Shown here piece after piece: positions 26,996 through 39,201 of a stretch of DNA of 50,061 bases. This DNA is from a virus. Position 1 is the stretch's first letter. The number at the start of each line of letters is the position of its first letter. Made by a program: the position numbers and the translations under genes. The stretch spans positions 1 to 50,061 of the IMG/VR virus record IMGVR_UViG_3300031963_000228; one strand, given 5' to 3'. Under the pieces are notes generated by a model, which was given only the letters and a program-made list of their open reading frames with translations, had not been told where the DNA came from and did no database searches.

Positions 26996-28882
26996 TCATT
27001 CTACAACGTTTTCTGCCGCAAAAAGCTCATTATACGCACTATTAATCTTAACCACAAATTCTTTGAAAAATGATTTATTAGTGTTTAATTGCAGCGACTG
27101 TCCATCAACAATCATACTAGCTATTTCTTGCTTCTCGCGCAGAATATCCCGCATATATTCGTCTATTGTACCTTCGCAGATCATATAATATATTTGAACC
27201 TTGTTGGTCTGTCCGATTCTATGCGTTCTATCTTCTGCCTGTTCGTGGTTAGCTGGAACCCAATCCATATCCAAAAACACCACCGTATCCATTACATGTT
27301 GCAATCCATCGATGCCCATACCGGCGGCTTTTAGTGAAAACAATCCAATCTTTGCCTTGCCAGAAGTTAATGCATCAATACTAGCTTGCCGCTTATCTTT
27401 ATTCATTTCGCCCGTTAATATCACAGATTGATCTTTGTAATGTTCTAACAGCTTTTTTAACGGAGCAATATAACAACTAAAAATAAGAATTGGTCGGTCG
27501 TTATCTAAAAATTCATCGATAAGTTCTATAACCCGTGGCAATTTCTTATCGATTAGAAATCCCTGTAGCTTGGGCATATGTTGAACGGATGGCTTACCTT
27601 CTAGCTTCCATTTACCAAACATTTCCTTCAACAACTCTCCGTATGTTCTATTCTCTTCTTTGTTTAGTTCAACATACAGTTCGTTTCTTTGCTTGGATGG
27701 TAGTTCTGTTAATACTTCTTCTTTCTTTCGTCGGATAACTAAATCTTTAGTTCGCTCATGCAAATCTTTTAAATTCTTTGCTGGCTCGCCCTTCCATCCA
27801 CCATATCGTTGAGTAAAGTGAAAAAAGTTATTGAAGCGTTGATTATCCAAAAAATTTAATAGAGAAAACGCTTCGATGGGGCGAGACATAACAGGGGTTC
27901 CTGTTAGGAAGATGCAATATTTGGTTTTAATACCAGGATACTTTCTTCGTTCTTTATATGACCCCAGAATACTTTTTGCCCGAATTGTTTGTCTATTTTT
28001 TAAATACGTAGCTTCATCACAGACTAATAAATCAAAATCTTGCTTTCGCAGATCACTAACAACCTTTCCAACGGCATCGTAGTGAACAATATGAAATTGA
28101 TTACTTAGCTTACCTTCGTATGATTTAGAATCCCATATTGTAGCGTTTTTACCTGTAAACTTTTTAATTTCACGTTTCCAGTTTAAGACTACCGATAACG
28201 GACATACAATAATAGTTTTTAAATTATGTAATTGAGCATAGGCAATGGCTTGCATAGTTTTACCCAACCCAGGCGCATCAGCAATTAAACATCGTCCTCC
28301 CGCTCTATCAACAAACTGAACGCCAACTTTTTGATAGGGATATGGTTGAATTTTCATGCCGGGGATAGCAAATTCGGTATCGTCTTGTACACGAATTTCA
28401 TCTAACTCTACACGCCGCTCAGTTAACTTTGCCAATGCTTTAATAACGGCTTCGTCGCATTTAATATTTTCTTTCCCAAATAGTTTAAATACCGCCGGTA
28501 GATGTACTATAGGAAATTCCCAATATTTTTCTTCACCATTCCATTTACGTCCATCTATCTCATATTTGAACTTATCTAACAAATCTCTATTGAATGGCAT
28601 GATTATTGCCGCAGTATTTTTATTCTTAACAAATACTTCTACTTGAGATGATTTAGATTGTTCTGCTTTTGTTGCGGATGCGTATTTTACTTTGGGTAAA
28701 CTTAATTTACTTATGTCTTTGTTTTGCAAAGCCAACTTAGCGGCAGACCGCCATACTTCAGGAATAGTTTCTGATTTACAGATCCATTCTAAGTATGACG
28801 GTGCCGTGTCTAATACATGTTGTAAAGTATATCCCTTATATCTTCCCCAAGTAAATACTATAGAATTATATGAGACAGTAAT
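26996..28882 (-). CDS. SNF2-family helicase, SMARCAL1-like, with ExoX-C/DUF3820-like N-terminal domain and non-ATG start
   Basis: The motor is clear: Walker A LIADAPGLGKTMQAIAYA, motif II LLVCDEATYLKN, motif III FLTGTPVMSRP, and motif VI AEDRTHRIGQTNKVQ. Before it, PFNRDLLDKFKYEIDGRKWN resembles the HARP substrate-recognition domain of SMARCAL1. The first in-frame ATG/GTG/TTG is a TTG at 28735. However, the frame continues upstream with VFTWGRYKGYTLQHVLDTAP and SYLEWICKSETIPEVW, a DUF3820/ExoX-C-like domain that should belong to the protein. The likeliest start is ATT at 28880-28882, with GAGG eight bases upstream, giving 628 residues. An ATG at 28896-28898 is out of frame by one base. It probably acts in fork repair, like T4 UvsW. 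Confidence 0.85.
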   Translation of the reverse strand: MTVSYNSIVFTWGRYKGYTLQHVLDTAPSYLEWICKSETIPEVWRSAAKLALQNKDISKLSLPKVKYASATKAEQSKSSQVEVFVKNKNTAAIIMPFNRDLLDKFKYEIDGRKWNGEEKYWEFPIVHLPAVFKLFGKENIKCDEAVIKALAKLTERRVELDEIRVQDDTEFAIPGMKIQPYPYQKVGVQFVDRAGGRCLIADAPGLGKTMQAIAYAQLHNLKTIIVCPLSVVLNWKREIKKFTGKNATIWDSKSYEGKLSNQFHIVHYDAVGKVVSDLRKQDFDLLVCDEATYLKNRQTIRAKSILGSYKERRKYPGIKTKYCIFLTGTPVMSRPIEAFSLLNFLDNQRFNNFFHFTQRYGGWKGEPAKNLKDLHERTKDLVIRRKKEEVLTELPSKQRNELYVELNKEENRTYGELLKEMFGKWKLEGKPSVQHMPKLQGFLIDKKLPRVIELIDEFLDNDRPILIFSCYIAPLKKLLEHYKDQSVILTGEMNKDKRQASIDALTSGKAKIGLFSLKAAGMGIDGLQHVMDTVVFLDMDWVPANHEQAEDRTHRIGQTNKVQIYYMICEGTIDEYMRDILREKQEIASMIVDGQSLQLNTNKSFFKEFVVKINSAYNELFAAENVVE

Positions 28883-29143: not shown

Positions 29144-30691
29144 TTAACCTCTTTTCTTAAATAATTGTACAGAAACTTCGCTATTTGTCAACAGTTCCGA
29201 GCACGGTTCCCAATCTACATCTAAGCCAGTTTGGGCTACTACAGAATCCAATGTAGTTTGTTCCATTATATCGCTTGTAAGATATAGCAATAAATGTGTA
29301 CCTGACTTTGTTAATCCTGCCTTGAGTGCATCTACATCAGATGGAATATTGTGTTCTAACAATCTACCTGGCATTAGTGCAATTATTCCATATTTTTCTA
29401 ATTCCCAAGTATTTTGTGCAAATATATCTGCCCACCATACCTTACCAAAATACAGTCTTTCCATCGCAGATTTAAATCTATTTTCTGCTAATTCAACTCC
29501 ACATGGAAGTGATGCGAGATCATCATTATATTTTTGTGTGATTAACTTATAAAGTTTTTCAACAAATATTCCGTTTCCACATCCAAGATCTAGCACATCG
29601 CCGCGTGGTAAATCAATAGAATTTGCTGCCTCTAACATCAACGAATGCGCTAATTCCATAGATTCTTTATTCATGTATCCATTTTCTTCCCACTCTGAAT
29701 TATCAACTAATGATAATTTAAATGATTTAGATTCTGATACTTTATTCTTCTTGGTCTTAAATGGGAATCTAGCTCCACGAGATCCGTTTTCTGGAAATAC
29801 ATCGCTATGCTTTTCTACTACATATTTGTCTGTGGTGCAATCTCCTCTAGTGAATACTCTGAAGCATGGCGTATATAATTCTACAATTCCATGCATAACT
29901 GACCATTCAACAGGCCATTGCTGCATTTGATATATTTCTTCAATTATATCCGTGTGGATAGATTGATGTCTAAATTCATACACTTCCCGTGCCATTTGCA
30001 AGCTATGTTCACAGTCAAATTTACAAGGTAGGTGTGGAACTAATCTAACACCAACCCATCTCAACATTGTATGTGCTTCGAATGGCATGGTCTTTGGTAA
30101 CACAATTTTCCAAGTTTCTTCTACGGTAGTATCTGTATTTGGCATCTTTGTCATTCGATTTTGCACTTCCATATCTGGAATGTCTACCGATTGATCAAAT
30201 GTAGGATCAATTGATTGCTCATCAATCCATCGTTTTACGAACGCATCTACGCAGCACTTAGGATACCCCAACAATTCACCGCATAATCTATCTAATTGTT
30301 CTGCGGTCATATTTCTTTCTGCTACACGAATCCATTCGTTTACATCGGATTCGTTTCTAGTAACAGCTACTCGAAATACATATGGATCTCCTTCGGAATA
30401 TTCCTGAATAGCTCCATAGAATCCTAACGTATTAATTTTATTCTTTCCAATAATAACAGAATATAATTTATGCTTAATAAATAAATCTTCTTTGAATTCA
30501 TTATAAATTTCAGGAGGACATGTGGTGATAAATGCCCTTCTGTGTCCTGCGATAGTAAGTTCTAAATCTAATTGTCCAGATGTTACCTTTTGAATTTTTG
30601 GTAATAGTTCTGAATATTTTGATTTATTGTCAGGACTAGAATACTGAATTCTAGTGAATTCATGCATGTAATTTGGTGTCATTCTAAACAT
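29144..30691 (-). CDS. DUF483-like Cys-rich domain fused to a SAM-dependent methyltransferase
   Basis: This 515-residue two-domain protein has an N-terminal part with LCGELLGYPKCCVDAFVKRW (about residue 135) and HLPCKFDCEHSLQMA (about 220). The paired G-Y-P-x-C-C and P-C-x-x-x-C-x-x-S motifs resemble DUF483-type proteins and could bind a metal or Fe-S cluster. The C-terminal part (about 365-515) is a class I methyltransferase with the SAM loop GDVLDLGCGNGIFVEKL and a second acidic strand LPCGVELAENRF. The methyl acceptor is unknown. It lies two genes behind the radical SAM/SPASM gene. GAGG precedes the ATG by seven bases. Confidence 0.75.
   Translation of the reverse strand: MFRMTPNYMHEFTRIQYSSPDNKSKYSELLPKIQKVTSGQLDLELTIAGHRRAFITTCPPEIYNEFKEDLFIKHKLYSVIIGKNKINTLGFYGAIQEYSEGDPYVFRVAVTRNESDVNEWIRVAERNMTAEQLDRLCGELLGYPKCCVDAFVKRWIDEQSIDPTFDQSVDIPDMEVQNRMTKMPNTDTTVEETWKIVLPKTMPFEAHTMLRWVGVRLVPHLPCKFDCEHSLQMAREVYEFRHQSIHTDIIEEIYQMQQWPVEWSVMHGIVELYTPCFRVFTRGDCTTDKYVVEKHSDVFPENGSRGARFPFKTKKNKVSESKSFKLSLVDNSEWEENGYMNKESMELAHSLMLEAANSIDLPRGDVLDLGCGNGIFVEKLYKLITQKYNDDLASLPCGVELAENRFKSAMERLYFGKVWWADIFAQNTWELEKYGIIALMPGRLLEHNIPSDVDALKAGLTKSGTHLLLYLTSDIMEQTTLDSVVAQTGLDVDWEPCSELLTNSEVSVQLFKKRG
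29164..29191 (-). promoter_or_regulatory. Possible promoter at the end of the methyltransferase gene
   Basis: TTGACA (29191-29186), a 16-base spacer and TACAAT (29169-29164) lie over the last codons of the methyltransferase gene, 27 bases before the next ATG at 29137. It could drive the 79-residue gene and the SNF2 helicase independently of the modification cassette. It overlaps coding sequence, so this is moderate evidence only. Confidence 0.45.
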
Positions 30692-30700
30692 TTTATATCC

Positions 30701-31087
30701 TCATTTAGTAAACGGATCATCTTCTAAAATTAGAAGAGGATTATCTTTAATTTGTTGTATCATTGGTATTAATCGCTGTTCTATTTGCTTTTCCTTTGTA
30801 GTTAATTGCCTATCGGCATAAACCCCAGGGGCAATTTCTTGTCGGTGTTCGTTTTTCTTATTTAAATTAAAAATAGGATCATTTGGATGATTGGAAAGAG
30901 GTTCATTTTCAAACCGCCTATTTAATTCTTGGTTTTGAAATGTATGACAATTATCTTTTACAATCTCTGCATCTACTCTGGTTACATTTTGTGATACCGA
31001 TGCGATTCGTTGTAATGCAACGTCGATAACATCTCGTAAATCTCGCAACACTAACATCAACTCTTTTCTTTCTATATAATCACTCAT
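30701..31087 (-). CDS. Unknown protein between radical SAM and methyltransferase genes
   Basis: This 128-residue charged protein has an N-terminal helix MSDYIERKELMLVLRDLRDV, then a polar middle rich in Asn, Asp and Glu (CHTFQNQELNRRFENEPLSN), and the C-terminal segment EQRLIPMIQQIKDNPLLILE. No domain is recognised, and there is one cysteine. AAGGAAA precedes the ATG. Its place inside the cassette, nine bases downstream of the radical SAM gene, suggests an accessory role, for example as an adaptor, but nothing in the sequence shows it. Confidence 0.65.
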   Translation of the reverse strand: MSDYIERKELMLVLRDLRDVIDVALQRIASVSQNVTRVDAEIVKDNCHTFQNQELNRRFENEPLSNHPNDPIFNLNKKNEHRQEIAPGVYADRQLTTKEKQIEQRLIPMIQQIKDNPLLILEDDPFTK

Positions 31088-31096
31088 AACATTTCC

Positions 31097-32461
31097 TTAT
31101 TTTTTAAGATGACTTGGACGTTCACCAAAACTCAATCCCTTGTATTTTTTCCAATATTCCATTGCATTCGGGAATGCGGTAAGCTTGCGTTTAATATCTC
31201 CATTAGAATCCGAATGATCTAAGTGGTTTGGATTATTCTGCGGATTTGAATTTTTTATTACTTCGATGAAACCAAGATATTCATTAACTGGAACATCATT
31301 TTCAATTATAGACAGCGCATCTTTCATGTAAATATTGATCCCTCGTTTCCACATCTCTACCGTAAGTTCTTCAATTTCTTTTCTGCGAGGGTGTAGTGAT
31401 ATTGGCGTTTGTCCATTTTCCACCATAACCTTTTCATATAGAGAAAATAAAACTTTCCAGTGTAAACATTCTACAGTTCTATTTCTAAAATCCGCATCAA
31501 TTACTGTACCAGGACAGTTTGATTTACATGCAAGGAAAAATCTACAGTCTTTACATCCTCGATGTTCTTGTGGAGTATTGTATAACATTACATATCGTTC
31601 CCATCCATGATCATCTGTTTTGATCCAGTCAACACCTTCTTTACTAATTCGCCCACAGTTAGTTTTATTTCCCTGTCCATCAATACCTTGTACAGAATCT
31701 GTAGTGAAAATATCACATACGTTAAATATGCATGAGGTGGTGCCATCTAGTCCTGCTAGATTTTTTGATACGTCATCGAACATATCAAACACGATATTTT
31801 TTAATTGAGTTGACTGAAATTCCCAGATATCCAATGCAAATTCAACCGCATCTTCGGTTGATACGCCAACGGTTTCTTCAACAGATTTATAATCCATCTG
31901 CTGCAAATGCAATCGAATAGATCTTACGCCTAAATCATCCAACCATTTCAACCATTCTTTGAATCGCGTTCTATTCTTTTTTGCTACATTTCCGCGCCAC
32001 ATAGTAATAATAAGACCAGGTGGTCTTCCAAGTTTTGATAGCTTTTCAATATTAGCCATTGTTTTTTTGGTAGATTCTCTAGTTTTTTCTAGAGTTCCAG
32101 CCCATCGACTATCGTTAAGATCATCAGGACCGTCACAAGAAATGCCTGGGAATACATTATATTTTCCCATAAGTTCGATGTGTTCGTCTGTCATCAGCAC
32201 TGCATTTGTTTGCATTCCTGACATACCAAACTTTTCATGTCCCCATTTCCACATGATTTCTAGATCTTTAATATCGGTGAGTAATGCCTCCCCACCAAAA
32301 AAATTAAATCGTTGATTGTATGATTCAATCGCCGCAATCATCTTATCTACATCATATGGTTTATTGTTACCAAAGTTTCCACCATCTCTTAGTGGATGTT
32401 CATAACAATACGGGCAACTTAAATTACATACAACTCCAACTGGCGTAACTTCAATTGTCAT
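31097..32461 (-). CDS. Radical SAM/SPASM peptide- or protein-modifying enzyme
   Basis: This 454-residue enzyme starts MTIEVTPVGVVCNLSCPYCY, with the radical SAM C-x3-C-x2-C at Cys12, Cys16 and Cys19, followed by FNFFGGEALL (the GGE motif). The C-terminal SPASM domain fits the consensus fully: C-x(14)-G-x4-C in CDIFTTDSVQ...GNKTNC, then GCKDCRFFLACKSNCPG (C-x2-C-x5-C-x3-C) and a final Cys in VECLHW. Three [4Fe-4S] clusters are expected. SPASM enzymes modify ribosomally made peptides or proteins (RiPP maturases, anaerobic sulfatase maturases). It lies 14 bases downstream of the TPF-repeat gene, its most likely substrate. No peptide-binding RRE domain is visible. Confidence 0.9.
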   Translation of the reverse strand: MTIEVTPVGVVCNLSCPYCYEHPLRDGGNFGNNKPYDVDKMIAAIESYNQRFNFFGGEALLTDIKDLEIMWKWGHEKFGMSGMQTNAVLMTDEHIELMGKYNVFPGISCDGPDDLNDSRWAGTLEKTRESTKKTMANIEKLSKLGRPPGLIITMWRGNVAKKNRTRFKEWLKWLDDLGVRSIRLHLQQMDYKSVEETVGVSTEDAVEFALDIWEFQSTQLKNIVFDMFDDVSKNLAGLDGTTSCIFNVCDIFTTDSVQGIDGQGNKTNCGRISKEGVDWIKTDDHGWERYVMLYNTPQEHRGCKDCRFFLACKSNCPGTVIDADFRNRTVECLHWKVLFSLYEKVMVENGQTPISLHPRRKEIEELTVEMWKRGINIYMKDALSIIENDVPVNEYLGFIEVIKNSNPQNNPNHLDHSDSNGDIKRKLTAFPNAMEYWKKYKGLSFGERPSHLKK

Positions 32462-32475
32462 AACTATAATTCCTC

Positions 32476-34266
32476 TTATGGACCGACGTAAACTGGCTGA
32501 TCTACGTGCGGGGTTTGGTTAAATAAAGTATTAGCAAACGGCGTCTGGGCAAATGGCGTTTGTGCAAACGGCGTCTGGGCAAATGGTGTTTGTGCAAATG
32601 GCGTTTGTGCAAACGGTGTACTTGCAAATGCAGTATTGACGAATCCGGTATTGACGAATCCGGTGTTGACGAATCCGGTATTTGCAAATGGTGTTTGTGC
32701 AAAATTTACGAATGGTGTTTGTGCAAAGTTGACGAATGGTGTTTGAGCAAAGTTGACGAATGGTGTTTGAGAAAAATTTGCAAACGGTGTTTGAGCAAAT
32801 GGAGTTTGTCCAAAGCTTGCAAACGGTGTTTGGGCAAAGTTTGCAAACGGAGTTTGAGCAAAATTGACGAATGGCGTTGATGAAAAACTAACAAAAGGAG
32901 TTTGTCCAAAATTAGCAAACGGTGTTTGTGAAAATGGAGTTTGTGCGAAGCTACTAAAAGGAGTAGAACCGAAACTTGAAAATGGTGTTTGTGAAAAACT
33001 TGCAAATGGTGTAGAACCAAAACTACCAAATGGGGTTTGTCCAAAGCTTGCAAATGGAGTTGATGAGAAACTCACAAACGGTGTATTTCCAAATGGAGTT
33101 TGACCAAACGGAGTTAGTACAAATGGTGTATTTCCAAAGTTTGCAAATCCAGGAGTTGACGCAAAGAACGGTGCGGTATAATCACAGAATCCCATAAAAT
33201 CAGGTTCAAATGCTTCACAGCCGCTCGGTGAATATGTACCACCACTCGAAAAACTTGAAAACGGGCTTTCTGCATAGTCCTGAAATGCCTGGTTATAAAA
33301 TCCCGTATTATCAAACGGAGTTTGACCGAATGCGGTATTTCCGAAACTACTACCGAATGCGGTATTTCCGAACGAATTCGTAAATGGAGTATTACCAAAT
33401 GTACTATTGAATCCTGTATTCCCGAATGAATCACCAAACGGTGTATTACCAAATGTACTGGTAAATGGTGTACTACCGAATGAATTGGTAAATGCTGTAG
33501 TTTTTCCTGCGGTATTGCCGAACGTATCAGTAAATGGCGTATTTCCAAACGTACTAGCAAATGGCGTATTTCCAAATGTACTGGTAAATGGTGTACTGCC
33601 GAATGTACTGGTAAATGGTGTACTGCCGAATGTATTTGTAAATCCCGTATTGACGAATGCTGTATTTCCAAATGTGCTTGCAAACGGCGTGTTTCCAAAC
33701 GTACTGGCGAATGGAGTATTACCAAAGGTGCTAGCAAACGGAGTATTTCCAAACGTACTGGTGAACGGAGTTTGTGCGAACGGAGTTTGTCCAAATGGTG
33801 TCTGGGCGAATGGTGTCTGAGCGAATGGCGTTTGTGCAAATGGTGTATTTGCAAACGCCGTATTCACGAACCCCGTATTCACGAACCCCGTATTCACGAA
33901 CCCCGTATTTAAAAATGGAGTTTGGGCAAATGGAGTTTGAGCAAATGCCGTATCAGAATGCCCTTGTTCTTTTGTAGTAGTTGAAGATACCCAATTCAAC
34001 TTTGAACTTTCTACCCACAATGATCCTGCAATTGCACCTGCGGGTAGTGCACCTAAGCTAGATCTGGGGACTTGACGAATATTTTTTGAAGAATCTACAT
34101 AATATAAATTAGAGCCATCCACCCACACAGAACCTTCGTTAATAGTGGGTGGATTACTTGGTGCCGCTGATGTTATTGATCCGCTATAATAATATTCATT
34201 TCCTGATGCGTCTACAAAGTGAAATTGACTTCCACTCACCCATATAGACCCTGCAAGTTTTGGCAT
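32476..34266 (-). CDS. TPF-repeat virion protein, candidate substrate of the radical SAM enzyme
   Basis: This is a 596-residue protein. The N-terminus has three similar beta units: AGSIWVSGSQFHFVDASGNE, EGSVWVDGSNLYYVDSSKN and AGSLWVESSKLNWVSS. From about residue 105 to 587 it consists of short Phe-centred repeats: five-residue (FAQTP, FVNTG), eight-residue (FVNFAQTP) and nine-residue (FASTFGNTP) units, with about 46 copies of TPF by hand count. A short non-repeat island near residue 345 carries the only two cysteines (SGCEAFEPDFMGFCDY). Apart from the island the repeats have almost no charged residues. F-x-N/Q/S recurs throughout. A GGAG Shine-Dalgarno supports the ATG. It may be a fibre or solenoid, and is a likely target of crosslinking by the next gene product. 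Confidence 0.8.
   Translation of the reverse strand: MPKLAGSIWVSGSQFHFVDASGNEYYYSGSITSAAPSNPPTINEGSVWVDGSNLYYVDSSKNIRQVPRSSLGALPAGAIAGSLWVESSKLNWVSSTTTKEQGHSDTAFAQTPFAQTPFLNTGFVNTGFVNTGFVNTAFANTPFAQTPFAQTPFAQTPFGQTPFAQTPFTSTFGNTPFASTFGNTPFASTFGNTPFASTFGNTAFVNTGFTNTFGSTPFTSTFGSTPFTSTFGNTPFASTFGNTPFTDTFGNTAGKTTAFTNSFGSTPFTSTFGNTPFGDSFGNTGFNSTFGNTPFTNSFGNTAFGSSFGNTAFGQTPFDNTGFYNQAFQDYAESPFSSFSSGGTYSPSGCEAFEPDFMGFCDYTAPFFASTPGFANFGNTPFVLTPFGQTPFGNTPFVSFSSTPFASFGQTPFGSFGSTPFASFSQTPFSSFGSTPFSSFAQTPFSQTPFANFGQTPFVSFSSTPFVNFAQTPFANFAQTPFASFGQTPFAQTPFANFSQTPFVNFAQTPFVNFAQTPFVNFAQTPFANTGFVNTGFVNTGFVNTAFASTPFAQTPFAQTPFAQTPFAQTPFAQTPFANTLFNQTPHVDQPVYVGP
32506..33954 (-). repeat. Degenerate 15/24/27-bp coding repeats of the TPF protein
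   Basis: The coding repeats appear at DNA level as 15-, 24- and 27-bp units. The two ends of the array carry nearly the same block (three FVNTG units followed by FAQTP units), at about 32550-32700 and 33780-33920, like a duplication or homogenisation by recombination. Synonymous differences among the units (NTG, QTP and STF codons vary) show they are old enough to diverge while the protein pattern is kept. Confidence 0.75.
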
Positions 34267-34313: not shown

Positions 34314-35030
34314 TCATCGCAAGTCTTTAAAAGATGGCACCTTAATCTTCGTAACGTGGCTATCTTCTTTAATTTCATCAGTATGTGGATGTGTTCCCCG
34401 CATGTAATTTTTCTGCCATCCAGTTCCGCGATTTGGATTACTTAAAAATTCTGCTCGGCGGGTTGACCATTCTGTATAATCTGCTTTGAATTGTGGGTCG
34501 GAATCTAGTCGCTTTAACTCCACTTCCACATTATTAAACATTTCAAGATCCACAGGGAAAATCTGACAAATCACATCCCCTTCAGTAAATCTTACAGTTC
34601 CTGGCTGGGTAAATCGCCAATTCATAGTAAAAGTAAATGGCAACCAATGCGTCTCAACTACCCCAGACAATGGAATAATATTTGGCTTTGGATTATTTGG
34701 AGCACCCGATACATACAATCCATATGGATATTCTGTTTTAAAAATATATCCAGTATGCCACGTAATAGTTCCTTCTCCAAAATGACTCTTGGGAAGATAT
34801 AGTGGTGGTCCTGAAATGTGTTTAAATGTAATATCGCCCAATGCATTTCCTCCATTCCACGTAACATCGAAGGAAGCCATAGATAGAACCTCCCACCCCC
34901 ATTGATTTGCAATGGAAAGTGGAAGGCATCTATATGGATTTCTTACTAATGCTTCGTTCATCCATTCTCTGGATGGGGAAGCGGGACGCATTACGTGGGG
35001 AGTTCCTACTTCATACGCAGTAATTTTCAT
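34314..35030 (-). CDS. DUF6065-like protein, first gene of the modification cassette
   Basis: This 238-residue protein contains NPYRCLPLSIANQWGWEVLS, SFDVTWNGGNALGDITFKHI, SHFGEGTITWHTGYIFKTEY, VVETHWLPFTFTMNWRFTQP and VRFTEGDVICQIFPVDL. This is the pattern of the DUF6065 family of bacteria and phages. The all-beta look with conserved His (SHFG, THW) and acidic residues suggests a cupin-like fold; an oxygenase function would be inference. It is the first gene behind the promoter at 35066-35094. The TPF-repeat gene follows 47 bases later. Confidence 0.7.
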   Translation of the reverse strand: MKITAYEVGTPHVMRPASPSREWMNEALVRNPYRCLPLSIANQWGWEVLSMASFDVTWNGGNALGDITFKHISGPPLYLPKSHFGEGTITWHTGYIFKTEYPYGLYVSGAPNNPKPNIIPLSGVVETHWLPFTFTMNWRFTQPGTVRFTEGDVICQIFPVDLEMFNNVEVELKRLDSDPQFKADYTEWSTRRAEFLSNPNRGTGWQKNYMRGTHPHTDEIKEDSHVTKIKVPSFKDLR

Positions 35031-35099: not shown

Positions 35100-36488
35100 T
35101 TATACAAATTGACAATTTGTAAAATCTAATTGCTGCCCTTCAGGACAACTGTTGGTTACGCAGAATCCTGCGGCAGGAACATACGATCCCGCAATACATG
35201 CATTTGGTCCTGCTGGTCCTGGGGGTCCTGGGGGTCCTGCTGGTCCTGCTGGTCCTGCCGGTCCTTCTGGACCTTGTGCGCCAATTGGTCCTGGGGGTCC
35301 TGCGGGTCCTGGCGTAGTTGATGCTGGTCCTGGGGGTCCTGCTGGTCCTACTGCTCCGCCAGGTGCGTCTGCACCTGCGGGTCCTTGCGGTCCTGGAGGT
35401 CCAGGTGGTCCTGCCACTGTGCCTGGGGGTCCTGCTGGTCCTGGTGTAGTTGACGCTGTGCCTGGAGGTCCTGGAGGTCCTGGGGGTCCTGCCGCCCCCG
35501 CTGGTCCTGGGGGTCCTGCTAATTGACTTCCTGGAGGTCCTGGAGGTCCTGGAGGTCCCGCTACACCTGCCGGACCTGCAACGGATGCAGGTCCTGGCGG
35601 TCCTGGAGGTCCTGCGGTTCCGGGCGATGCTGGTCCCGGTGGTCCTGGGGGTCCTAATGTATTCGATCCTGGAGGTCCTGGAGGTCCTGTGATTGATGCT
35701 CCAATCGGTCCCGTTGCACCAAGTGTATTAGGTCCTGGAGGTCCTGGAGGTCCTGCGGTGCCTGCTGTTCCGGCATCTCCTGATGTACCTGTAGTTCCTT
35801 GTGGGCCTGTTGTGCCTTGCGGTCCTGCCGGACCAGCAGGACCGAATAAATTAGCCCCAGCAGAACCCGCCACACCGGCTGCTCCTGTAGGACCTCTTTC
35901 GCCTTGTGCTCCGGTTGGTCCGGTTATTCCTAGACTACCTTGTGCCCCAGTGGGTCCAGTGGTTCCCAATGTAGAGCTTCCTTGTGTACCTGTAGGTCCT
36001 GTGGTTCCTATGATGCCCGTAGGTCCTACTGCTCCTGTTGGGCCTGATATTCCTCTTGGTCCCGTAACTCCAGAGGGTCCAATAATACCCGTTGGGCCTG
36101 ACGTACCTTGAATTCCTGTTACTCCCGTTATTCCCGTCACACCTGTAGGACCTGTGACGCCGGTTGGGCCTGTAGGACCGAATACTCCAGATGGTCCTGT
36201 TATGCCCGTGAGTCCTGGCGGTCCTTGATCTCCACCAGGACCAGTTACACCAGTAGGTCCTTGTATTCCAGTTATGCCCTGTGGTCCTGTTGGGCCTGTT
36301 GGGCCTGTAGGTCCTGCCACTCCGGTAACACCTCTTGGGCCTGTTGGTCCTGTGCTTCCAGAGGGACCGCTTGCAGCAAATACAGCACTAGAAGCAGTAC
36401 CTGCAACGGCTAACGATGCAGATACTACAACTATGCTTTGCGATGCCCATCCAACGGTTCTTGGAAATCCAAACGGAAAATATCTCAT
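35100..36488 (-). CDS. Collagen-like tail fibre protein (third of three)
   Basis: This 462-residue protein begins [20 protein letters not shown], then an Ala/Ser-rich stretch to residue 39. From there to about residue 428 it is an almost unbroken Gly-x-y triple helix. The first half is dominated by GPTG/GVTG triplets and the second by [11 protein letters not shown] short Cys-containing C-terminal cap follows ([20 protein letters not shown] and onward, four cysteines). Such proteins form rod-like trimeric fibres on phage tails or heads. The short N-terminal anchor is shared with the two genes upstream. The opposite strand also has long open frames, which are only shadows of the repeat. Confidence 0.9.
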
Positions 36489-36515
36489 ATTAATTAAATA
36501 TCTCTATAAACAAGG

Positions 36516-37817
36516 TTAACTTCCAGCCGGAGGTCCTGGGGGTCCTGGGGGTCCTGGGGGTCCTGCAGGTCCTTGCGGTCCCGGTGGTCCTGCGGGTCCT
36601 ACGGGCGATGATCCTTCGGGTCCTGGGGGTCCTGTTACACCTGGTGGTCCTGCGGGTCCTGGAGGCCCTTGCGTACCTGGAGAGCCTGCGGGTCCTGGTG
36701 GTCCTGGAGGTCCTGCAGGACCCGCAGGTCCTTGTCCACCGGTTGGTCCTGGCGGTCCTGCGCTACCCGCAGGTCCTTGTGGGCCTGCTGCACCTGCAGG
36801 TCCTTGCGGTCCCGGTGGTCCTGGAGGCCCAGAACTATTTGCCCCTGGCGGTCCTGGCGGTCCTACTGGTCCTGCTGGTCCTGGAGGTCCTTGAGCAGGC
36901 TGAATTCCTGCAGGCCCTTGTGGGCCTGTTGCACCAACTGGTCCTGGAGGTCCTGCTGGTCCTGGCGGTCCTGCCGTACCTGCTGGTCCTGCTGGTCCTG
37001 GTGGTCCTGGTGGGCTTGATGTTCCTATTACTCCCGTTGCACCGGGTGGTCCTGCGGGTCCGGCGGGTCCTTGTGGTCCTGCAGGACCTGCCGATCCCGG
37101 AGGTCCCTTTGGTCCTGTGCTACCTTGGCTACCTTGTGATCCTTGTGGACCAGGTGGTCCTGGTGGTGCAGTTCCTGTGGCTGGGGGTCCTGGGGGTCCT
37201 GCTGGTCCTGTTGTTCCTTGTGGTCCAGTAGCACCTCTTGGAGATACACCCGTTGCTCCTTGTATACCTTGTGTTCCTGTAGTGCCTTGTGGTCCTGGGG
37301 GTCCTGCAGGTCCTTGTATACCTACACTACCTTGCACACTACCAGCCGCTCCGGTAGGTCCTTGATTTCCAGTGATACCAGTAATTCCAGTAGGTCCTTG
37401 TATTCCCGCTACGCTACTTGCAGGCCCAGTAGGTCCAGTTGCACCACGAGGTCCAGTAACACCAGTAACACCAGGTATACCAGTAGGACCAGTTACACCC
37501 GTTGGTCCAATTGCTCCAGTAGGTCCTAGTGGACCAGTTGGTCCTGTAGTTCCACGCAATCCAGTAATACCAATAAAATTATTAAATCCAATAATACCAG
37601 TTGGTCCGGTAGGTCCTGTTGATCCAGATGCTATTGGTCCGGTAGAACCTGTAGGGCCTGTAGGTCCTAAAGTTCCTTGGGGTCCTGTGGGACCTGGGGC
37701 ATTAAATGAATACGATACATTACCTGTAGCGGCAATTATACTTGCACTTACCGCTACAGATGATGATACCGCATATGATGCCGATGATGGTACGCCCAAC
37801 GGAAAAAATCTTGTCAT
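36516..37817 (-). CDS. Collagen-like tail fibre protein (second of three)
   Basis: This 433-residue protein has the same plan as its neighbours: an anchor [20 protein letters not shown], an Ala/Ser coil to about residue 40, then Gly-x-y repeats to the very end (…[11 protein letters not shown]) with few breaks such as [10 protein letters not shown]. Thr-rich triplets come first, GPP/GPAG triplets later. Unlike the third copy it has no C-terminal Cys cap and ends in the repeat. It would form a trimeric collagen rod. The three paralogues probably arose by tandem duplication and then diverged, since the repeat registers and breaks differ. Confidence 0.9.
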
Positions 37818-37836
37818 TTAATAAATTCCCTAAATA

Positions 37837-39201
37837 TTAAACTGGAGGAGGTGAATCAGGAGGAGGTCCTGGGGGTCCTGGGATAGGAACACACCCGCAT
37901 GATGCAGCAGGTATAAATGATCCAGGTGGTCCTGCAGGCCCTGCAGGCCCTTGTGGTCCTGGTGGTCCTGTAACCGATCCTGCTGGTCCTGGTGGTCCTG
38001 GATTTGCTGGTCCCGGTGGTCCTGCTGGTCCATTTGATCCTGGTGGTCCTGGTGGTCCTGCCGGTCCTACACCACCGTCGTTACCTGGGGGACCTGCAAT
38101 TCCCGCAGGACCAAATGGACCAGCGGGTCCTGGGGGTCCTGGTGGTCCTACAGGTCCATTTGCTCCTGCAGGTCCTGGTGGTCCGGCGGGGCCTGGTGGT
38201 CCGGTAACTGTTCCTGGTGGTCCTACTATATTAGATGGAGATGCTGCCGTTCCTGCTGGTCCTGCTGGTCCTGGAGGTCCTGGAGGTCCTGCGACAATTG
38301 TGCCAGCAGGTCCTTGTGGTCCTGGAGGTCCTTGTGGAGACGCACCGGCAGGTCCTGGGGGTCCTGTTAGTGAACTTCCTGGAGGTCCCACGGGTCCTAC
38401 TGGTCCTGGTGTGGTGTTTGCAGGACCAGTAACACCTGTTATGCCCACACCGGCAGGACCAACAGGTCCTGGGGGACCAGGAGGTCCACTACTTCCAGCA
38501 CTTCCTTGTGCGCCGGTAGGGCCTGTTGCCCCGATGGGTCCTGGCGGTCCTGCTGTTCCCGGTAGTAATGAACCTATAGTTCCTGCAGGACCAGCAGGAC
38601 CAGTTACTCCTACTAATCCAGAAATTCCAATTACGCCTGATGGGCCTGTATTACCAATAATTCCTGTAGGTCCCGTGGCACCTGTCAACGATAATCCCAC
38701 AGGTCCAGTAGGCCCAGTAGCACCGGCACCTCCTTGTGTGCCTGCAGGCCCAGTGACACCTTGTGCACCAGTTGCCCCTACTGCACCGGTTGGTCCTGTT
38801 GCGCCTGTTGCGCCTTGTGGGCCTGTTGTGCCGATAATTCCAGAAGGTCCTAATATACCTGTTGGACCTACTATACCCGTTATACCCGTGATTTGTGGTC
38901 CGGTAGGTCCTGTAGTTCCTTGTGCACCTGTTACACCCGTTGCCCCCGTTGGTCCTTGAGGTCCAGTGGGTCCTTGAGGTCCAGTGGGTCCGATAATTCC
39001 AGTGGCACCTGGTCTGTTTACACCGGTTGGTCCTGAGGCTCCTTGCAATATACCGGTAGCACCAACAGGACCCGTAGGCCCACCACCAGATAACGTACTA
39101 GCCGCATAACTACCCGTGATTGCATAGCTTGAGGTAGCAGCGAACGAAGCACTAGTTGCATTTGAAGCGGTACTAAAAAATCCAAACGGAAATAAACGCA
39201 T
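37837..39201 (-). CDS. Collagen-like tail fibre protein (first of three)
   Basis: This 454-residue protein has the anchor [20 protein letters not shown], continuing with [14 protein letters not shown], the Ser-Tyr-Ala pattern common near the attachment point of phage fibres. Collagen repeats run from about residue 40 to 450, again Thr-rich then Pro-rich. A small break near the C-terminus carries two cysteines (SCGCVPIPG) and could link or register the three chains. It starts three bases after the stop of the preceding 307-residue virion protein. A TTGACA upstream (39228-39223) has no usable -10. Confidence 0.9.

Follow-up and report, generated by a model that had tools for sequence, protein, structure and literature searches.

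A candidate phage-encoded radical SAM/SPASM system for crosslinking aromatic-x-polar triplets in a viral repeat fibre

Triceptide maturases (XncB, OscB, MscB, YxdB, HaaB and YhhB) are radical SAM/SPASM enzymes whose genes adjoin that of a ribosomal substrate containing aromatic-x-polar triplets. They link the aromatic ring of residue i to the β-carbon of residue i+2, and the published pairs include Phe-Asn, Phe-Ser, Tyr-Asp, Trp-Asn/Asp and His-Ala (PMC11002830). Two other maturases act repeatedly on a single substrate: ChlB, termed a 'multiple cyclophane synthase', forms several cyclophanes on one peptide, after which its α-ketoglutarate-dependent HExxH (aKG-HExxH) partner hydroxylates Asp and His (PMC12636437), and the polycyclopropylglycine maturase TvgB, also a radical SAM/SPASM enzyme, modifies every TVGG repeat unit (PMC11002830). 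In phages, a trio of genes encoding a radical SAM protein, an unknown protein and a DUF483 protein (the 'rSAM module') was described in 2024 from Thermus phages Cumys and phiMa; DNA modification was suggested, repeats were not mentioned, and similar prophage loci and DUF483 fusions were noted (PMC11437467). Here we describe such a cassette in the IMG/VR virus record IMGVR_UViG_3300031963_000228, the whole of which (50,061 bases) is called the window below. Its radical SAM/SPASM gene stands directly behind the gene for a repeat protein, referred to as the fibre, in which nearly every Phe begins an aromatic-x-polar triplet. From sequence, it is very likely that the fibre is a substrate of the enzyme, whatever the reaction, and we consider it probable that it is a substrate carrying i/i+2 crosslinks.

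The fibre protein, the proposed substrate, has 596 residues and is encoded at 32476..34266 on the minus strand, as are all the window features given below with two dots between their coordinates. TPF occurs 46 times, beside FAQTP (18), FVNTG (5), FVNFAQTP (4) and FASTFGNTP (3). Fourteen bases separate the fibre stop from the enzyme gene, whose ATG is preceded by a GAGG resembling a ribosome-binding site; a preliminary description of the window, made from its letters, had given the protein length, about 46 TPF repeats and the 14-base gap exactly. Within residues 105-596, 99 of the 103 Phe have N, Q, S or D at +2, against 26 ± 4 (maximum 39) in 2000 shuffles, and an aromatic stands at -2 of 67 of the 71 N/Q. 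The repeat region (32509..33951) holds about 100 F-x-(N/Q/S/D) triplets, spaced by 5, 3 or 4 residues (61, 17 and 15 of 99 intervals, respectively). Given this spacing, the repeat unit is the F-x-(N/Q/S) triplet, which the preliminary description had also recognised, and not TPF or a pentapeptide. The codons used for Phe and for Gln are mixtures of synonyms, and the repeats are therefore not merely one copied DNA unit.

Both ends of the fibre are conserved in other letters. Residues 1-102 (33961..34266) form an N-terminal domain of three tandem G-S-x-W units, in which G6 S7 W9, G45 S46 W48 and G81 S82 W84 are invariant across 14 aligned fibres (27-50% identical to that of the window); a role in attachment or enzyme recognition is possible. 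The first triplet, H103-S-D105 (33952..33960), is retained despite the Phe-based remaining repeats, and H-x-D occupies this site in 14/14 fibres. The C-terminal triplet H587-V-D589 (32500..32508) belongs to an ending, HxDQPV or a close variant, that most relatives share (PHSDQPVFVGP, HADQPVRG, HNDQPVYVG and others).

Such a protein might instead be an unmodified repeat fold, such as a β-solenoid, a pentapeptide-like structure or a metal-binding HxD fibre, with the enzyme acting on another virion or cell target. Pentapeptide_2 does score above its cut-off on the window protein (34.7 bits against 26.4), but its best stretch covers only 22 residues and a continuous five-residue period is absent; spacings of 3, 4 and 5 here and of 3 to 9 in relatives are unlike a fixed-period solenoid. 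Metal-binding HxH fibres, known from T4 gp37, would offer a precedent, but Phe-Asn could not replace His-Asp as metal ligands. We regard this explanation as improbable, also in view of the enzyme tails and gene pairing described below.

The triplet extends beyond the window, in different letters. Homologous fibres range from 180 to 870 aa, with tens to about 100 triplets each; their repeats are mostly H-x-D/N, retaining the aromatic-x-polar pattern. Among 40 pooled non-redundant fibres, the residue at +2 of 1301 His is D in 75% or N in 23% (98% D/N) and that of Phe is N/S/Q/D in about 85%, while Tyr and Trp have no +2 preference of this kind. The Cumys and phiMa repeats are H-x-D (e.g., SHGDSHGDHADHSD), with 54 HxD counted for a fibre of 343 aa; the closest sisters of the window mix His and Phe triplets within one protein (e.g., HTDNTTPFSNIAFSN), the window being the Phe extreme. 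Selection was assessed in the four close fibre pairs with amino-acid differences, diverged fibres aligning ambiguously: codons were changed at 4/323 sites for triplet positions 1 and 3 versus 54/685 for position 2 and linkers (Fisher p=4e-6). All fifteen pairs showed the same trend more weakly (changes at 8.7% for position 1 and 11.0% for position 3, against 17.6% for position 2 and 17.9% for linkers). As read from these alignments, selection acts on a pair of residues a constant distance apart, which is what a bond joining them would require.

This pattern bears on whether the enzyme could modify the triplets without a crosslink, by epimerisation or by a one-residue change at the polar β-carbon or the aromatic. 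SPASM enzymes catalyse many reactions, and aKG-HExxH hydroxylase-like proteins, found in some phages of the family and in a Plesiocystis cluster, point to one-residue oxidation within the wider system. A one-residue reaction, however, needs no fixed pair, whereas residues i and i+2 are both constrained and i+1 is free, and the rule is obeyed by His and Phe only, not by Tyr or Trp; we consider such chemistry unlikely. Since the known triceptide enzymes share the geometry of the triplet rule, i/i+2 cyclophanes are favoured; the preliminary description had left crosslinking and epimerisation side by side, and at this level of evidence a triceptide-like crosslink appears to fit best and epimerisation less well. 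The window fibre lies next to its presumed enzyme as triceptide substrates do, and crosslinking is established for the motifs Phe-x-Asn and Phe-x-Ser (PMC11002830). It differs from triceptide systems in being a viral fibre rather than a small peptide, in the His-x-Asp that predominates in its relatives, and in that no leader cleavage or export genes are seen at this locus.

The enzyme itself (454 aa, 31097..32461) matches Pfam PF04055 (E=9.7e-15) and belongs to a family of 26 aligned relatives. Its radical SAM motif, C12xxxC16xxC19 (32405..32428), and the eight Cys of its SPASM region from C244 to C332 (31466..31732; C244, then C249-x14-G264-x4-C269 ... C303-x2-C306-x5-C312-x3-C316 ... C332), assigned from relatives and an alignment to 4k36, an anaerobic sulfatase-maturating enzyme (anSME), are all invariant in 24 relatives, which confirms the intact C-x3-C-x2-C and full SPASM pattern noted at first sight. 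All 24 family members match models of cyclophane-forming and other peptide maturases, AmcB best (3e-28). The nearest solved sequence is anSME (E 3e-27), which has the same auxiliary-cluster Cys. In a structure predicted with a pLDDT (predicted local distance difference test) of 77, the nearest folds are anSME (Z 27.0) and ChlB (Z 26.2), followed by CteB, TigE and SuiB. The enzyme differs from anSME at Gly270, which follows the third auxiliary Cys and aligns with an Asp of 4k36, the catalytic Asp of anSME. ChlB, the top Foldseek match at 16-18% identity, is alike in fold, in forming several cyclophanes per substrate and in the HExxH-like proteins of some family phages; it is unlike in sequence, in having an HExxH partner and in a substrate that is a short RiPP (ribosomally synthesised and post-translationally modified peptide) precursor. 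TvgB resembles the proposed system in that one radical SAM/SPASM enzyme acts on each unit of a repeat, but its chemistry is intra-residue, on valine, and its setting is a bacterial peptide cluster.

The enzyme also carries substrate-like triplets. Its C-terminal tail bears the motif H413-L-D-H-S-D (31208..31225), with H413 and D415 invariant in a 4-sequence alignment, and the tails of relatives hold HADHTD or many copies of HGDHTD. These fibre-like triplets argue against an enzyme directed at some other target than the fibre. One virus clade has tandem pairs of radical SAM paralogues (L020:6491-9941, L021:8001-11129 and L022:8001-11390), and its fibres carry both His and Phe triplets; perhaps there is one enzyme for each triplet type.

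The distribution of the two genes was examined by several searches. A single-protein search returned no close enzyme relatives in viral contigs; a profile search yielded 24 viral loci and further relatives in Chengkuizengella, Plesiocystis and a Halanaerobiaceae metagenome-assembled genome, and a plasmid search gave two haloarchaeal relatives in total. Human faecal 'phage' matches (L005) were rejected as bacterial sulfatase-maturase loci. The enzymes of Thermus phages Cumys, phiMa and phiLo are 42-44% identical to that of the window, and the gene immediately preceding it in Cumys and phiMa encodes a protein whose N-terminal domain is homologous to that of the window fibre. At nearly all viral loci, at least one fibre gene lies directly ahead of the enzyme gene. 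Enzyme and homologous fibre occur together in phages of Thermus, in a phage region of Chengkuizengella and in about 15 distinct viruses from metagenomes, with several viral clades represented, and on a haloarchaeal plasmid, where a fibre (GSIWVEG ... HSDQPLAV), the enzyme and a DUF483 gene adjoin a baseplate J gene; no adjacent fibre was seen for the Halorussus relative. The gene pair is thus present in unrelated viruses, whose hosts are bacteria and probably archaea. In cells the family is sporadic: a scan of the order of Chengkuizengella (346 genomes) and of the phylum of Plesiocystis (331 genomes) found only the query genome in each.

The co-occurrence check had been set beforehand by the preliminary description. 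Open reading frames (ORFs) dense in [HF]-x-[DN] were found at 29 of 30 family loci, many of them near-duplicates (about 20 are distinct), against 0 of 2711 ORFs at 77 loci around other radical SAM genes. The density threshold was 0.15 at family loci and 0.2 at control loci, and L027 alone falls between these values. The enzyme of L017, the lone family locus without a fibre-type ORF, is the sister of that of phiLo, whose fibre gene is on the other strand and more than 4 kb downstream of the enzyme gene; the L017 contig ends short of that distance. phiLo also has a second repeat protein (L004:19253-21601; 782 aa, 104 H-x-D/N triplets), which adjoins its 474-aa fibre, both being on the strand opposite the enzyme. 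In the reverse direction, scanned with three sub-clade profiles because the 14-sequence fibre profile was too divergent, the enzyme is present on 18 of 22 contigs with the fibre N-terminal domain. Repeat genes standing without the enzyme were not seen, as the other four contigs are fragments in which the fibre is near the contig end and apparently cut there. The proposal that the fibre is the SPASM substrate thus gains support from co-occurrence in both directions and from H-x-D/N relatives that keep the triplet, and the pairing with one fibre type in distant viruses argues against an unmodified fold.

The cassette has a third member, outside the region of fibre and enzyme correctly placed by the preliminary description. 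It encodes a 515-aa DUF483 protein with a C-terminal class I methyltransferase domain (29144..30691); the DUF483 match (E=9.9e-5) is below the Pfam cut-off, an LGYPxCC motif is invariant, and methyltransferase folds match the C-terminal half only. A homologue is present in 28 family loci, and this protein is a cassette partner. Between it and the enzyme lies a 128-aa protein without a family match (30701..31087). In sister phages the slot after the enzyme holds a different protein of 118-132 aa (L012:9335-9691, L009:9322-9690 and L008:9333-9710) with two HADHVDETG-like motifs that also occur in the enzyme tail; it is possibly a scaffold or recognition partner.

The same cassette, adjacent and in order, constitutes the Cumys/phiMa 'rSAM module', whose enzyme is 42% identical and whose 'unknown' protein is the fibre; there the repeats are H-x-D, whereas the window has the extra 128-aa gene between the radical SAM and DUF483 genes. 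The statement that no such phage system had been described therefore holds for the repeats and their modification but not for the trio. No paper linking the enzyme to repeats or virion fibres was found in a literature search, which is weak evidence, as most subscription papers lay outside it. In favour of DNA modification by the trio, cyanobacteria, Geitlerinema among them, are reported to carry homologues next to deazapurine genes (PMC11437467). We consider it very improbable here, as the best sequence and structure matches of the enzyme are peptide or protein maturases, the genes are located in the tail-fibre region and the repeat protein does not have the character of a DNA-binding protein.

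Some phages of the family encode HExxH-like proteins, each scoring below cut-off, and in L020 the position is within the cassette region; the window has no HExxH motif in ORFs of more than 150 codons. The RiPP-like cluster of Plesiocystis pacifica (L030:7366-10917) combines a 39%-identical enzyme with DUF483, an aKG-HExxH hydroxylase (E=8.8e-19) and a RiPP precursor of the NHLP-leader type, whose match (E=8.7e-13) narrowly misses the cut-off; no triplet core was seen in it. Upstream of the Chengkuizengella fibres, two tandem proteins (L031:5164-6599) resemble 2-oxoglutarate/iron oxygenases by eye (W-H-I-D, later H).

Window genes include a phage DNA polymerase, ribonucleotide reductase, helicase and tape measure protein. 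A helicase gene (26996-28735) separates the cassette from a baseplate-type gene. Its identity to the sister-phage versions is about 70%, against only about 49% for the enzyme, which suggests faster evolution of the cassette than of the genes around it. On the other side of the fibre gene, a DUF6065 gene (34314-35030, E=6.6e-77) is followed by three collagen-like proteins (35100-39201) in the same operon. The collagen-like neighbours would suit an unmodified structural fibre, but no such neighbour is seen in the Thermus and haloarchaeal cassettes. Collagen-like proteins of sister phages contain an H-x-D/N triplet segment within their C-terminal part (L006:2243-3364, L008:1968-3089, L009:4510-6186 and L012:3522-5084), and these chimeras may be additional substrates of the enzyme.

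The proposed mechanism is a phage-encoded, RiPP-like maturation of a virion fibre. The enzyme would recognise the fibre, perhaps through the conserved N-terminal domain and the first HxD triplet, and modify every aromatic-x-polar triplet as it moves from one repeat to the next. Most likely it would join the ring of residue i (Phe in the window, His in most relatives) by a C-C bond to the β-carbon of residue i+2 (Asn/Gln/Ser in the window, Asp/Asn in relatives), giving a chain of small cyclophanes that could stiffen a fibre with a putative role in host attachment or particle stability; the preliminary description had envisaged a rigid fibre that would resist proteases. At the level of sequence, the proposal builds on the triplet rule and its conservation, on the pairing of the genes, and on the cofactor motifs and fold class of the enzyme.

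Several points weigh against crosslinking of the fibre. None of the known maturase models against which the window protein was tested matches any family member above its curated cut-off; the window protein itself scores 51 bits against 445 for YhhB, 50.6 against 425 for AmcB and 64 against 349 for anSME. As nearest folds, anSME and ChlB are tied. Neither His-Asp nor Phe-Gln is represented among the published cyclophane pairs that were found, and the viral collection holds no close relatives of the Phe-based repeat region. The tail location of the fibre is suggested by neighbouring tail genes, and DNA modification has been proposed for the trio.

As for the wider family, we lean somewhat towards a general route of virion maturation, shared by bacterial and archaeal tailed viruses, whereby a RiPP-type enzyme would place dozens to about 100 cyclophanes on each fibre while the triplet letters (His-Asp, His-Asn, Phe-Asn, Phe-Gln and Phe-Ser) evolve freely. 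If crosslinking of the fibre is correct, it would, to our knowledge, be the first virus structural protein crosslinked by a radical SAM enzyme and the most highly cyclophane-crosslinked protein known. It would also add His-Asp and Phe-Gln to the known triceptide motifs, account for a conserved phage gene trio that has lacked an explanation and provide an enzyme-substrate pair for the design of stapled fibres. The cultivable Thermus phages Cumys, phiMa and phiLo make the idea testable at once. Chemistry known from small-peptide natural products would then also build virus particles, with one enzyme stapling a structural protein many times.

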